Source: a virus
IMG/VR virus record: IMGVR_UViG_3300045051_000248
Span: 1-31,330 of that record
Strand: one strand, 5' to 3'
DNA: 31,330 nt
The notes below the pieces were generated by a model. It searched no databases. It was not told the origin of the DNA and worked only from the letters and a program-made list of their open reading frames with translations. Shown here piece by piece: positions 8,158 through 31,330 of the stretch (positions are counted from its first letter, which is position 1; each line of letters starts with the position of its first letter). A program made the translations under genes and the position numbers.

Positions 8158-9039
8158 ATGGGGGCATACCGAGATTCACTATTACCCCGCATCGTCATCC
8201 CTGACACTGAAACCCTAAAGAAGACGTGGTTCCAGCTTGGCAGTGCGAAGTTCCAAGTATTGCCCAAACAGTTTGAGTTTTTGGCCGCGCAGGAACAATT
8301 CCTCGGCTACCTCGGGGGATATGGTTCCGGCAAGACGGCAATCGGCGTCATCAAAGCCGCGATGCTTTCCATGATCCCGAACAACCGTGGGATCGTGGGT
8401 CGTTTAAACGGCACGGACCTTGACGAAACTGCAAAGCGCGATCTGATCGACTTCCTTCATGAAGCGGAGCTATTGAAGGTTCCGCCGAACTCCAAGAACA
8501 ACCGGGCCATTGTCTACTGTGTCGATCCGATCACCGGCAAGAACCTTGGATACACGTCCGAGATTGGCTTTATGCACTTAGACGATCCGTGGCACATCCG
8601 AGGCCGACATTTAGGCTGGGCGTGGATTGACGAGGGTTCCGAAGTTCACCGGGCGGCATGGCAGAACCTTATCGGACGACTTCGTTTACCGGCAGCACGG
8701 CAACTCTACCGCATGATGGTGACCGGCAACCCAGACGGCCATAACTGGATCTACGACTTTTTCTTCAATCAAGAAATTATCGAAAACATGATCTGCGGTT
8801 TACCGACTTGCAAATTGTCAGACAAGGAATGCAACAAACAGATGCGCTTGAAACGGCGCGGTGTTCATTGCTCCTCCCTTGAGAACTACTTTCTACCACC
8901 CGAGTACTTGCAGAACATGCTCCACAGTTTTTCGGAAGAAGAACGCCGACGCTACATTGACGCAGAGTTCGAGTGCTTCGAGGGTCAGATTTATAAGGAG
9001 TTTTCCTCAGATATGCACGTACTAAGGCAGGCCGCGTAA
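8158..9039 (+). CDS. Large terminase, ATPase half
   Basis: 293 residues with the packaging motor ATPase motifs: Walker A GGYGSGKT (53-60), Walker B AWIDEG (155-160, catalytic Glu159) and the coupling segment TGNPDGHNW (189-197). It powers DNA translocation into the head at the portal. The protein ends right after the linker (FEGQIYKEFSSDMHVL), where a normal terminase continues into its nuclease domain. Here a stop codon follows, overlapping the next ATG by one base (TAATG). Full-length terminases are about 450-600 residues; the two genes together make 539. The mRNA appears leaderless. Confidence 0.92.
   Translation: MGAYRDSLLPRIVIPDTETLKKTWFQLGSAKFQVLPKQFEFLAAQEQFLGYLGGYGSGKTAIGVIKAAMLSMIPNNRGIVGRLNGTDLDETAKRDLIDFLHEAELLKVPPNSKNNRAIVYCVDPITGKNLGYTSEIGFMHLDDPWHIRGRHLGWAWIDEGSEVHRAAWQNLIGRLRLPAARQLYRMMVTGNPDGHNWIYDFFFNQEIIENMICGLPTCKLSDKECNKQMRLKRRGVHCSSLENYFLPPEYLQNMLHSFSEEERRRYIDAEFECFEGQIYKEFSSDMHVLRQAA
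8402..8409. repeat. GTTTAAAC palindrome 4
   Basis: In the terminase ATPase gene, read CGT TTA AAC GGC (Arg-Leu-Asn-Gly); ten-base palindrome CGTTTAAACG. Confidence 0.9.
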
Positions 9040-9779
9040 TGGCATACGAAGGGTGGACTTGGCCCCGGCCTCCACGAGAATGGCCCCGAGGATTGGCGAT
9101 AGACGTTGGCGGCACGTCCCCGTGGTCGTGGCTGTTCCTAGCGATTGATCCCGATCAAAACGTCATTGTGTATCACGAGATTTATAAGGCCACGACTTTG
9201 ATCGAGGATCTGGTAAAGGAAGCGAAGCCGTGGATGGCTGATCAAGAAGGCAGGCCATACGAGTTCAAATTCAAGTGCATCGACGCGGCCAACAAGATTG
9301 CAGCCGACGACATCCGGCGTAAGGGCATCACTCTCACCAATGCGATCAAGATCAACAAGCTAACCTCGATACATCGTTTAAACGGGTACCTGCACCCCAA
9401 TCCCATTCATGCTTTTCCCCAGTGGCACCCGCTGGCCGGGCAGGCCGGATCACCCCGGCTGTTCATCATGTCCAGTTGCAAGGGATTAATCAAAGAATTA
9501 CCCCAGCAACGATGGAAGCAGAACTCGACTGGGACCAGCATGAAGGACGAACCAGACCCCAATATAGCGGATCACAGTGTGGACGCCCTACTATATGCGC
9601 TCAGGCAGCTTCCCCCGCCGTATGACCTAAAGCCTGTCCCACCAAGCAAGAAGGGCGAGGACATCGACTTGAGAAGCAAGTTGTATTGGATCGACGTGAA
9701 AAAACAGAAGGAGAAATACGAGACTTCCAACCGCATACCTTACCGGCTCACTCGCGGGGGAATCAATATACTCGGTTAA
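9039..9779 (+). CDS. Large terminase, nuclease half
   Basis: 246 residues corresponding to the C-terminal RNase H-fold nuclease of terminases, which cuts the concatemer. Acidic metal ligands are visible: Asp22 in GLAIDVGG, Asp82 in FKCIDAANK and Asp182 in DHSVDALLYAL. It is in a different frame from the ATPase half. This frame is open upstream only to 8997, and no classic slippery heptamer is seen in 8997-9036, so coupled re-initiation at TAATG is more likely than frameshifting. A GTTTAAAC site lies at 9376-9383. Confidence 0.88.
   Translation: MAYEGWTWPRPPREWPRGLAIDVGGTSPWSWLFLAIDPDQNVIVYHEIYKATTLIEDLVKEAKPWMADQEGRPYEFKFKCIDAANKIAADDIRRKGITLTNAIKINKLTSIHRLNGYLHPNPIHAFPQWHPLAGQAGSPRLFIMSSCKGLIKELPQQRWKQNSTGTSMKDEPDPNIADHSVDALLYALRQLPPPYDLKPVPPSKKGEDIDLRSKLYWIDVKKQKEKYETSNRIPYRLTRGGINILG
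9376..9383. repeat. GTTTAAAC palindrome 5
   Basis: In the terminase nuclease gene, read CGT TTA AAC GGG; again CGTTTAAACG. Confidence 0.9.
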
Positions 9780-16787: not shown

Positions 16788-18428
16788 ATGGGTTTAACAA
16801 ATGTCGGCAGAGATTTCGTGGCACAAGCGATCATTAATGACGCTTCGCCTACGTTCTTCTCGCAAGCAAACGCATACGTAGGGGTGGGCGACTCATCGGC
16901 AGCCTTTTCTGCCGCTCAAACCGACCTACAGGCATCTTCAAATAAATATCGTAAGCAGTGCGAGGTAACACATCCAACCCGCACCAACAATTCCATCACC
17001 TATCGCGTGATCGTTGCTTCGGGCAATGGGAATTTTGCATGGAACGAGTGGGGACTTTTTAATGCTCCGTCCGGGGGCACCATGCTTCTTCGCAAGAACG
17101 AAGCACTTGGCACCAAGAACAGTTCGCAAACATGGCAGTTGGATGTTGTCATCACGTTTGACAGTAGCGCGAGCAGCGGCGGCGGTGGCACTGGCAGTGT
17201 GACCGGCATGTTGGACGATGGTGTGAGTCATCCCGCACCGGCAACGGGCGCGTTTGCGTACAACACATTTGTACCGGGCGCAAGCTATACCGATCCCGTT
17301 TTCGGGACCACGGTTAAACGACTCACCAGTGACCACGCAACGGACGACTTGTATGCACGTGCGGGTTTCTGGAACGCGAATGGCACCCGCTATCTTCACA
17401 AGACGACTATTCAAAAAGTTAGTGACGGATCAATTGAGTACTCCAACATCCCAGTTGGGGCACGTTCGTTTGATCGAAGTTTCGATCCGGTTAATCCTGA
17501 CGTGTTGTATTACATGTCAGGTAACACGATTCGCAAAATCACCTTGGGCGCGGGCGGTGCTTTCACTGATGTTGTGTACCTCGATGTGGGCACTCCCACT
17601 TTAAGTTTGGGTGGTGAGACAGACTGGTTAGACGCAGTAGGGACGCACATGATCGTGCGCTACGGCAGTGAACCATCAATCCACGTCTTTGATCGAACCA
17701 ATCTTGCAGCCGGGCCATATACCGGAGCGGTTGACGGATCACACGTCGAAACGGGCGGTGGTCATGTGGGCATCACTCCCGATGGAAAATTCGTTATACG
17801 TACTGGCGTGACAACGGGTACTCCGGCATGTAGCGGTGGGAACGGTGTGACGAATAATGCACTGTACTCTTACGCGATCAATCCGGGGAGCCGATCTGTG
17901 GCTGGGGCAAATGAGTTCTGGACACTGGGTTGCGCTCACATCGGTTACGTATCGGCCTCGAACGGCCACTCCTACGCAATCGTCACGGGCAACTGGCAAC
18001 CTTACATCTATGCCATAGACGTTTCCTACAACGCCTACGGTCAATGCAACAACACAATCATCAGCAACGCTCGACTGTTGCTCAGTCCTGCGTCATGGGA
18101 CTACGCCCGGCATCTTGCCGGTGCCAAGAAGGGAACCTATCAGGATTGGGCCTTCATATCTGTCGAAGACGTGACGGATGTGATTAATTCCGGCAGTAAC
18201 AGTGGTGGTTTCATCACCCCGTGGAAATTGTATCAATCCGAAATCATTGCAATGAACGTCCTGACCGGCGAGGTTCGACGGTTAGCCCATCATCGTTCAC
18301 GTAGTATTTCTGACTATCGTTATCAACCACGTGTGTCCTGTTCATGGGGTGCCGAGGTCGTGGGCTTTGCCTCGAACTTTAATCAGGCTGACATCATTGA
18401 CACTTTCTGCATTCCGTTTGGGTTATAA
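16788..18428 (+). CDS. Tail fibre-like protein: 126-residue domain plus propeller-like region (546 aa)
   Basis: Residues 1-126 are a third copy of the domain at 1548 and 1938 (LTNVGRDFVAQAI, SPTFFSQANAYVGVGDS, NFAWNEWGLFNAPSGGTMLLRKNEALGTK, WQLDVVITF). A Gly/Ser linker (SSASSGGGGTGS) leads to about 410 residues with repeated blades of the type found in oligogalacturonate-lyase-like propellers: KRLTSDHATDDLYARAGFWNANGTRYLHKT, SFDPVNPDVLYYMSGNTIRKITL, GGHVGITPDGKFVIRTG, SEIIAMNVLTGEVRRLAHHRSR. Probable receptor-binding or glycan-active fibre. Confidence 0.72.
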   Translation: MGLTNVGRDFVAQAIINDASPTFFSQANAYVGVGDSSAAFSAAQTDLQASSNKYRKQCEVTHPTRTNNSITYRVIVASGNGNFAWNEWGLFNAPSGGTMLLRKNEALGTKNSSQTWQLDVVITFDSSASSGGGGTGSVTGMLDDGVSHPAPATGAFAYNTFVPGASYTDPVFGTTVKRLTSDHATDDLYARAGFWNANGTRYLHKTTIQKVSDGSIEYSNIPVGARSFDRSFDPVNPDVLYYMSGNTIRKITLGAGGAFTDVVYLDVGTPTLSLGGETDWLDAVGTHMIVRYGSEPSIHVFDRTNLAAGPYTGAVDGSHVETGGGHVGITPDGKFVIRTGVTTGTPACSGGNGVTNNALYSYAINPGSRSVAGANEFWTLGCAHIGYVSASNGHSYAIVTGNWQPYIYAIDVSYNAYGQCNNTIISNARLLLSPASWDYARHLAGAKKGTYQDWAFISVEDVTDVINSGSNSGGFITPWKLYQSEIIAMNVLTGEVRRLAHHRSRSISDYRYQPRVSCSWGAEVVGFASNFNQADIIDTFCIPFGL

Positions 18429-29223: not shown

Positions 29224-29312
29224 ACGCCCATCCTTGAAACCAACATTGCTAGTAGCCCGCCGATGAATAAACCGGCGATGATGATCGCGATTGCAACACA
29301 GTCGTCACTCAT
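29220..29312 (-). CDS. Very small membrane peptide (30 aa)
   Basis: MSDDCVAIAIIIAGLFIGGLLAMLVSRMGV, a single transmembrane helix. Ribosome site AGGAGA precedes ATG. Its start overlaps the lysozyme stop and its own stop overlaps the start of the next gene (both ATGA), so three lysis-region genes are read as a coupled string. Pinholin or lysis regulator is possible. Confidence 0.6.
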   Translation of the reverse strand: MSDDCVAIAIIIAGLFIGGLLAMLVSRMGV

Positions 29313-29737
29313 GCCTGTTCTCCTGTTCGCATCATGGCAACCAGTCGGCGCGAGCGCATGCCTACCTGTTTGTACCAAAGGGAGTTCACCATTGCATCGG
29401 CAGCAAGAGCGAAGTGACCAGTGCGTAGATGTTCGAGTGTGTCTTTAAACTTGAGTAGCTTGGAGATTCCAAGGTTGAAGCACATGTTGGCGAGAACCTG
29501 TTGCCTCACTTCATCGAGGTTCTTCCACCACGGCAGCTTGGTGTTCAGATCGTGGATGACATCATTGAAGTCGTCATTGAAAATCTGTTGAACAGCGGCC
29601 TCACTGATTGGTTTCGCATCGAGGTTGTGTCCGATGCCGATTGTGAGTGCGCCCTTAGAACAACGGTACGGCTTGTACCGTTTGTCCTCGTCAACTTCGA
29701 GTTGGGATCGAAGTTCATTGATACTATCTGGGGTCAT
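29309..29737 (-). CDS. T4-type lysozyme (GH24 endolysin)
   Basis: 142 residues, the size of small phage lysozymes. The active-site pattern Glu-8aa-Cys-5aa-Thr is exact: Glu17, Cys26, Thr32 in LEVDEDKRYKPYRCSKGALTIGIGHNLD. Asp at the middle position is replaced by Cys, an alternative known in this family (E-8-D/C-5-T). NxGxxxLLKFKDTL and WYKQVGMRSRRLVAMMRTG are the usual C-terminal elements. There is no signal peptide, so release needs a holin. Ribosome site AAGGAG. It cleaves peptidoglycan. Confidence 0.92.
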   Translation of the reverse strand: MTPDSINELRSQLEVDEDKRYKPYRCSKGALTIGIGHNLDAKPISEAAVQQIFNDDFNDVIHDLNTKLPWWKNLDEVRQQVLANMCFNLGISKLLKFKDTLEHLRTGHFALAADAMVNSLWYKQVGMRSRRLVAMMRTGEQA

Positions 29738-29751
29738 AAGAACTCCTTCGT

Positions 29752-29964
29752 TTATGAATTGATAACGTGGTATGCGAAATACGCGACAACGAAGGTAGCG
29801 AGGGCAAGAAACCCCTTGAAATAGTTTTGGAACTTTTCGATTTCAGTGACCCTAGTCTCGATCTTTTCCACTTCGGACAGGCGCAGGGAAATACCATTCA
29901 GTTGGCCTTTAATTTCCCCGAGTGTTCCGATGATCTGTAGGAGGGTTTCTTGATTCAATTCCAT
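29752..29964 (-). CDS. XhlA-like coiled-coil membrane protein (70 aa)
   Basis: MELNQETLLQIIGTLGEIKGQLNGISLRLSEVEKIETRVTEIEKF is a coiled coil; FKGFLALATFVVAYFAYHVIN is a single C-terminal helix. This is the layout of XhlA/haemolysin-type lysis partners, which assist holin and endolysin. It begins 10 bases after a - strand TAAACT promoter motif with GAAGG as ribosome site and lies directly before the lysozyme. Confidence 0.72.
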   Translation of the reverse strand: MELNQETLLQIIGTLGEIKGQLNGISLRLSEVEKIETRVTEIEKFQNYFKGFLALATFVVAYFAYHVINS

Positions 29965-29982: not shown

Positions 29983-30549
29983 TTAAATCCCTTGAAGTGA
30001 CCTATAGTATTGATATACAAAGGCTTTCAGTACCGTCCGGTTGACGCCCATGCCCATAAATCCGCCTTTGTCGAACTTATACCGGAGCATTTCGGCGTAC
30101 ACTTTATCCGGTGCCCAGCCGTCCACCTTCATGCGATAGACCGCGATCATTACCCCAGTACGGTGCCGCCCACCTTGACAGTGGACATAGATGGGGTAGT
30201 TATCCGGGTTGGTAGTGATTTCTAAGAACCGCTCAACAGCCTCACGGCTCGGAGCACGCTTGGTACTTAAAGGGATATTGAAATAGTTCATACCAATCCG
30301 TCGCGCCGTTGGCCCTTCCCACTTCTCCGGGTCGTCTTTCAGGTCTACCACCGTCTTGATTCCTAACGTGTCCTTCAATCGAGCTAGTCGAATGTCATCG
30401 GCAATGACGCCACCACGATAGATGTTTTCGGTCACCTGCCCCATGTTCGTAGGCATGTCACGAACGATGTTGTCTCCACCGCCAGCCGCTAAATTACCCA
30501 AGGCCCAAAGGCCCGCGAAAAATGTCCAACCAAATCCTTGCCAGTGCAT
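29983..30549 (-). CDS. Membrane-associated dual-specificity tyrosine phosphatase
   Basis: 188 residues from ATG at 30549, chosen because GAGAGG lies 5 bases before it; an upstream alternative start (30600) has no such site. The P-loop HCQGGRHRTG at residues 123-132 has catalytic Cys124 and Arg130 (CX5R) with following Thr-Gly. ENIYRGGVIADDIRLARLKDTLGIKTVVDL is the usual opening of small dual-specificity phosphatases. Residues 5-23 are hydrophobic (FGWTFFAGLWALGNLAAGG), a membrane anchor or export signal. It lies next to the lysis genes. Phosphatases of this kind are rare in phages. Whether it acts inside or outside the membrane, and on protein, lipid or capsule systems, is open. Confidence 0.85.
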   Translation of the reverse strand: MHWQGFGWTFFAGLWALGNLAAGGGDNIVRDMPTNMGQVTENIYRGGVIADDIRLARLKDTLGIKTVVDLKDDPEKWEGPTARRIGMNYFNIPLSTKRAPSREAVERFLEITTNPDNYPIYVHCQGGRHRTGVMIAVYRMKVDGWAPDKVYAEMLRYKFDKGGFMGMGVNRTVLKAFVYQYYRSLQGI

Positions 30550-30557
30550 AAAGCCTC

Positions 30558-30629
30558 TCAGTTGGTGAAGAACCAGATCGCTATGACGAACAGTCCCCAC
30601 CCGATATAAATTTTCAAATCTTCTTTCAT
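30558..30629 (-). CDS. Tiny membrane peptide (23 aa)
   Basis: MKEDLKIYIGWGLFVIAIWFFTN: a charged N-terminus and one short hydrophobic helix. Ribosome site GAGG 6 bases before ATG. It ends 8 bases before the phosphatase ATG. The start lies at the edge of the TTGCGTCCT module copy. Real but of unknown role; small enough that only expression data would settle it. Confidence 0.5.
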   Translation of the reverse strand: MKEDLKIYIGWGLFVIAIWFFTN

Positions 30630-30661
30630 TGCGTCCTCAAACTCAGGGTGCGGAAGCACCC
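30629..30661 (-). terminator. TTGCGTCCT module and hairpin after polymerase gene
   Basis: Hairpin GGGTGC-GGAA-GCACCC (30646-30661) lies two bases past the polymerase stop; TTGCGTCCT (30629-30637 as read on the + strand) and CAAACTC adjoin it. The GGAA loop is the same as at 8122. This copy is inverted relative to the genes around it. Confidence 0.5.
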
Positions 30662-30663
30662 GT

Positions 30664-31330
30664 TTAGTCTTTAACGAGGTTGTCCTTGATTGCGATGTCG
30701 CAGCCGAATGTCAAACCATCGAGTTGAGGCCACGGTTGGGTAAAGGCGGCTTTAACGGGACCGAACATGATTCGCTCTACACGGTCTTCGGGAATATCAA
30801 ATATAAGTTCGTCGTGAATCTGCCAAACCATCCACTCGCCAGCTTCTTTCCACTCGGGGTGCTCGGGCGTACCAAACCAGAGTTGCCACATGATTTCTTT
30901 CAGGATTGCGGCAATGATGCTTGATGGTCCGAATGCAACTGCCGATGGGGCGTCACCGCCCGGCAGATCCCAAAATGGTTTGGTGTATCCAAACGCATTG
31001 GTGAGTTTCTTCTGTGCTGTTGCTTGTTTAATGGTGCTGGACTTCCAGCGGTTGACAGGATCACTTAGGGTTGTGCAGAAGCGCAGGAACTTCCCCGCTT
31101 CTGACTGCGATTCAAAATCTTCTGGATTATTTAAGAAGACGGTCTTCGGCCCGGCGAGATAGTTCCCGCCGTAAATAACAATCTTCATCTTTTTGTACAG
31201 AGCAAGGCCGCGCTTCTTAATGTCTTTGAGGTACGGCTTGATCTGGTCATCGGGCATCGTCTTATCAACGGGTAGCCCGAGGAACTTTGCCATTGCAAAC
31301 TTGTGAATGCCGAGTCGCGCCAGCCGCATG
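30664..31330 (-). CDS. DNA polymerase, family A, C-terminal part (cut by window edge)
   Basis: 222 codons of a longer frame reach the right edge with no sign of a real start. KKMKIVIYGGNYLAG matches the finger-helix region (Lys...Tyr-Gly) and WQIHDELIFDIPED is motif C with HDE, both diagnostic of family A polymerases (T7/Pol I type). The stop (TAA) lies at 30664-30666, followed at once by the hairpin module. It replicates phage DNA, probably with the DEDDy exonuclease encoded downstream. The exonuclease domain, if any, is outside the window. Confidence 0.88.
   Translation of the reverse strand, partial: MRLARLGIHKFAMAKFLGLPVDKTMPDDQIKPYLKDIKKRGLALYKKMKIVIYGGNYLAGPKTVFLNNPEDFESQSEAGKFLRFCTTLSDPVNRWKSSTIKQATAQKKLTNAFGYTKPFWDLPGGDAPSAVAFGPSSIIAAILKEIMWQLWFGTPEHPEWKEAGEWMVWQIHDELIFDIPEDRVERIMFGPVKAAFTQPWPQLDGLTFGCDIAIKDNLVKD

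Follow-up and report, generated by a model that had tools for sequence, protein, structure and literature searches.

An intact Siw14/TpbA-like phosphatase of Acidobacteriota type beside a viral lysozyme gene, and its probable location outside the host cytoplasm

Why would a phage carry, close to its lysozyme gene, an intact phosphatase that begins with an uncharged hydrophobic segment? The locus lies in IMG/VR virus record IMGVR_UViG_3300045051_000248, of which positions 1 to 31,330 (the whole stretch of DNA analyzed, 31,330 nucleotides, referred to here as the window) were considered. A first-pass annotation had described the product as a tyrosine/dual-specificity phosphatase with an N-terminal membrane segment, rare in phages and encoded near the lysis genes, and had proposed that it might switch off capsule synthesis, counter a host kinase-based defense, or act in the envelope before lysis. 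The gene and its parts are as follows.

30549..29983, minus strand: PTP/DSP-fold phosphatase (188 aa; ATG start; loop HCQGGRHRTG; single cysteine)
30475..30549, minus strand: N-terminal 25 residues, uncharged and hydrophobic, a probable signal anchor or signal peptide (weak alone; relatives have signal peptides)
30247..30273, minus strand: WPD-equivalent loop PLSTKRAPS, residues 93 to 101, with no Asp or Glu (Asp105 of TpbA aligns with Lys97)
30154..30183, minus strand: catalytic P-loop HCQGGRHRTG, residues 123 to 132, with nucleophile C124 and R130

The open reading frame on the minus strand corresponds exactly to the 29983-30549 interval annotated previously, and the complete HCX5RTG loop with Cys124 as the nucleophile was confirmed (HC124QGGRHR130TG). 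The ATG is preceded by GAGAGG. Pfam matches (PF22741, E = 1.8e-19; PF03162, E = 1.6e-17), a phmmer search against PDB sequences (Siw14 first, 1.6e-10; TpbA, 3e-10), an AF2 model, and structural alignment all agreed on an HCX5R(T/S) P-loop set on a PTP fold, and the identification of the product as a PTP/DSP-fold phosphatase, complete and with its loop intact, is therefore secure. The model, built on 26 relatives, had a mean pLDDT of 87, with values of mostly ~90 to 98 over residues 31 to 188 and a low-confidence loop at residues ~161 to 170 (pLDDT, ~60). Compared by Foldseek and VIA-align, it matched AtPFA-DSP1 and Siw14 first (VIA-align Z, 19 to 20 for the two; 20.1 to AtPFA-DSP1), with DUSP23 and TpbA close behind. 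We strongly infer that the phage protein has phosphatase activity.

In canonical DSPs, the general acid is an acid-loop Asp, e.g., Asp105 of TpbA, for which the phage protein has Lys97. The lack of a WPD acid combined with a GxHR loop is the Siw14/PFA-DSP pattern, found here as PLSTKRAPS and HCQGGRHRTG. Because the WPD Asp is absent and a His precedes the P-loop Arg, phosphotyrosine is not to be assumed as the substrate; the earlier label thus holds for the PTP/DSP fold but not for the substrate class that it took for granted. TpbA of Pseudomonas aeruginosa, a phosphatase located in the periplasm that reduces c-di-GMP and matrix formation, shares with the phage protein the PTP fold, a similar domain size, and, probably, an N-terminal export segment, whereas its loop (HCKHGNNRTG), its Asp105 acid, its separate clade, and its 24% identity over the alignment set it apart; it is the best functional precedent. 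Siw14 and AtPFA-DSP1 (PF03162; inositol pyrophosphatases) are the best fold matches and share the GxHRTG loop and the missing WPD acid, but they are eukaryotic, ~20 to 25% identical, and act on a substrate not known in these hosts, and the phage protein differs from them in having an N-terminal hydrophobic segment.

For AtPFA-DSP1, it has been proposed that water is activated by His155 and that the proton comes from the substrate itself (PMC9038691). Given the lack of an acid-loop Asp and the His before the P-loop Arg, as in AtPFA-DSP1, the phage enzyme may likewise act best on substrates that carry a good leaving group, although many members of the Acidobacteriota clade described below have an acid-loop Asp displaced by one position (MSDKDYP). 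Such a site, with His129 before Arg130, and the ranking of the fold matches would also suit a phosphoanhydride hydrolase like Siw14 and PFA-DSP1 that acts on a pyrophosphate-type envelope compound (e.g., an isoprenoid pyrophosphate) and not on phosphoproteins. Against this reading, which we consider unlikely, DUSP23 and TpbA scored almost as high, the MSDKDYP Asp lies close by in the relatives, and we know of no inositol pyrophosphate pathway in these bacteria. Slightly more doubtful still is its most specific form, a periplasm-facing phosphoanhydrase with a Siw14-type acid-free site that would act on an envelope pyrophosphate compound of an Acidobacteriota host and serve as a late factor in lysis or superinfection.

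In a genome scan, the bacterial proteins closest to the phage phosphatase came from Acidobacteriota (41 to 49% identity). The family had matches in 109 of 297 Acidobacteriota genomes (eight in one genome), and among the translated loci of the scan, the GGRHR loop occurred only in this phylum. The phage phosphatase fell within an HCxGG[RK]HRTG clade with support of 98/96 (96/95 in another tree); the 98/96 clade consisted of 20 rows, Acidobacteriota plus two phages, with HCxGG[RK] and the P-loop Arg in common. Its Acidobacteriota members (Blastocatellia/Pyrinomonadaceae) resemble the phage copy not only in the signature loop, sequence identity, and well-supported common clade but also in the limits of the catalytic domain and a C-terminal YVxxYY-type helix; they differ in that the phage N-terminus is shorter, less hydrophobic, and devoid of basic residues and in that the phage gene lies in a lysis operon. 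A degraded P-loop among relatives, which the first-pass annotation had named as evidence that would count against it, was seen in none of those checked: every row, in the clade as in the wider set, retained Cys and Arg. An aligned set of distant plasmid homologues (A2) was highly diverse. The exported HCxGGRHRTG phosphatase occurs as several paralogues (L018, L022, L080, and L083) within a single Acidobacteria metagenome-assembled genome (MAG; G001), which we read as a family expansion in Acidobacteriota. The clade placement is a weak lead to the host of the virus. The lysozyme was rejected as a host marker for its low host specificity (matches in six Acidobacteriota genomes; best, 42%), and a search with the major capsid protein, run without a positive control, gave no match in the 297 Acidobacteriota genomes.

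Taken alone, the N-terminal segment of the phage protein is a toss-up between a targeting signal and none. Residues 2 to 25 contain no D, E, K, or R (p ~6e-4 at the protein's own composition), and the Wimley-White octanol score (-7.2) equals that of exported relatives. The best Kyte-Doolittle 15-mer scored 1.21, which was equalled in 2,266 of 20,000 whole-protein shuffles, versus ~1.9 to 3.2 in exported relatives; no basic n-region follows the ATG start, and the AF2 model has no confident helix in the segment. The membrane segment claimed at first is thus uncharged and hydrophobic, as stated, but weaker than implied. An alternative GTG start at 30600 (205 aa; adding Arg5 and Arg15) was rejected, as it lacks a Shine-Dalgarno sequence and overlaps a 23-aa ORF.

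The relatives are more informative. Bacterial proteins of the clade with complete N-termini have basic n-regions and strongly hydrophobic cores, and nearly all Acidobacteriota members of the clade have clear Sec signal peptides; two loci (L019 and L020) at or near contig ends showed no signal sequence with the chosen start. Because close relatives carry export signals, the catalytic domain of the phage phosphatase probably lies outside the cytoplasm, and export is strongly inferred from these sequences. Its only cysteine is the catalytic C124, and 16 of 17 clade relatives counted likewise have a single Cys in the catalytic region (the exception, L086, has 2). This pattern is only suggestive of export, since TpbA, which is periplasmic, has three cysteines in the corresponding region.

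The lack of a basic n-region and the modest hydrophobicity would also agree with a cytoplasmic enzyme whose hydrophobic N-terminus serves as an anchor, either peripheral or facing inward, and which dephosphorylates host proteins, including kinase-based defenses and capsule tyrosine kinases. Some distant relatives, in Melainabacteria, lack signal peptides, and host-signaling roles have been proposed, without a test, for another phage PTP (PMC12038007). We nevertheless regard a cytoplasmic location as fairly unlikely: the nearest relatives have Sec or lipoprotein-type signals, the four members of the family that lack a signal peptide have 3 to 6 cysteines each versus one here, and no kinase or defense link was found. 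To our knowledge, capsule BY-kinase tyrosines and Stk-type defense kinases do not occur outside the cytoplasm, and the phosphatase, if exported, cannot reach cytoplasmic kinases. The proposals of capsule shutoff through a kinase and of counter-defense against Stk-type or other host kinases therefore lose support, while the export signals of close relatives support the third proposal, a role in the envelope, as possible.

A degenerate DNA pattern for HCxGGxHRTG identified one true phage relative in IMG/VR, namely, IMGVR_UViG_3300005546_000001 (131 kb). Its copy, 41% identical, has a lipoprotein-type signal with a PROSITE-type lipobox and adjoins a phage head-maturation protease, a phrog_403 DnaQ-type exonuclease, a phrog_240/5417 protein, and structural genes; the phrog_403 and phrog_240/5417 families are also present in the window. 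No lysis-gene neighborhood was seen around this copy, and the lysis link is therefore specific to the window genome. The tree gave no decision on whether the two phage copies derive from one capture (sister relation, p-AU = 0.44). In IMG/VR, no relative was recovered when the phosphatase, the polymerase fragment, or the major capsid protein served as a single-sequence query, and INPHARED contained no phosphatase match at 1e-5 (weak matches only, at E up to 5). Several candidates were discarded: L015 and L016 were chance matches to the loop pattern, L002 to L006 had only the lysozyme in common and lacked the loop motif searched for, and L011 (CAKLQH020000002.1, "Acinetobacter phage MD-2021a") has secA, folC, and accD among its genes and resembles bacterial chromosome rather than phage DNA.

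The rarity noted at first accordingly applies to the subfamily but not to phage PTPs at large, which are annotated in Vibrio phages J26 and R21Y, in mycobacteriophages (DSPs), and in an uncultured Caudovirales phage (a SIW14-like protein). These share a phage-encoded PTP fold with the window protein, and the phage PTPs obtained by tblastn matched it only at E above 0.01. Since phage PTPs as such are known, this is not a new kind of enzyme; what is unusual is its probable location, and the literature searched yielded neither an exported phage PTP nor a study of a bacterial Siw14.

Regarding the genomic context, the gene stands in a tightly packed minus-strand series.

30664..31329, minus strand: C-terminal portion of a family A DNA polymerase, truncated where the window ends
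30558..30629, minus strand: possible 23-aa one-TM microprotein, MKEDLKIYIGWGLFVIAIWFFTN (SD GAGG; stop codon separated by 8 nt from the phosphatase start)
29752..29964, minus strand: 70-aa protein with a coiled coil and a single C-terminal TM (phrog_689 holin at E = 0.094 only)
29309..29737, minus strand: phage lysozyme, 142 aa (PF00959, 8.8e-10)

From the polymerase end (30664) through the 23-aa ORF, the phosphatase, and the 70-aa protein to the lysozyme, the gaps are 34, 8, 18, and 14 nt, bearing out the reported proximity to lysis genes. Judging from its architecture, the 70-aa protein may be XhlA/holin-like, and the 23-aa ORF is possibly a membrane microprotein of the phosphatase operon. 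In a promoter scan of the region, no signal rose above chance, and a PTP-NADK arrangement was dismissed, there being no NAD kinase among the neighboring genes. Directly after the polymerase gene is a perfect 6-bp hairpin (GGGTGC-GGAA-GCACCC; 30646-30661) that is terminator-like on the plus strand only. Elsewhere on the plus strand, the large terminase (phrog_2) spans two consecutive ORFs (8158-9039 and 9039-9779) that overlap as TAATG, either a split terminase or a coupled pair, and a phrog_23653 domain occurs in three ORFs, in tandem at 1548-1928 and 1938-2321 and, once more, at the N-terminus of a 546-aa protein (16788-18428).

This packing, together with the retention of all catalytic residues at ~40 to 49% identity to any relative, argues against a host-derived cargo gene that plays no part in infection. 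Such a gene would fit the single other phage found with the subfamily in the scans made and the different neighbors in the two phages, and we consider it very unlikely.

Our preferred reading, to which we give a probability of about 60%, is a phage-captured, intact Siw14/TpbA-like Cys phosphatase of Acidobacteriota type that faces the periplasm and alters envelope or surface signaling. Phages would have taken the gene from Acidobacteriota-type bacteria, in which the family is exported and multicopy within genomes. The N-terminus, uncharged and hydrophobic, most likely targets the inner membrane and leaves the catalytic domain facing the periplasm; because its closest relatives are exported Acidobacteriota enzymes, the phosphatase probably acts on the host envelope. 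There, C124 would attack the phosphate of an envelope-exposed substrate, with R130 binding that phosphate; in the second step, water may be activated by H129, the role proposed for His155 in AtPFA-DSP1. The enzyme is probably made late, because its gene is packed with that of the lysozyme in one operon. Whereas the fold, intact loop, clade, and gene packing were demonstrated, its substrate and benefit are a matter of guesswork, the likeliest benefit being altered host envelope or surface signaling (TpbA-like), around lysis or against superinfection.

The locus draws attention to an exported phosphatase family, so far unnamed, that phages have captured and that has as many as eight matches in a single Acidobacteriota genome. 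If the enzyme is extracytoplasmic, phages would use extracytoplasmic dephosphorylation late in infection, a barely studied process, and this small phage enzyme would offer a handle on the role of the host phosphatase family.
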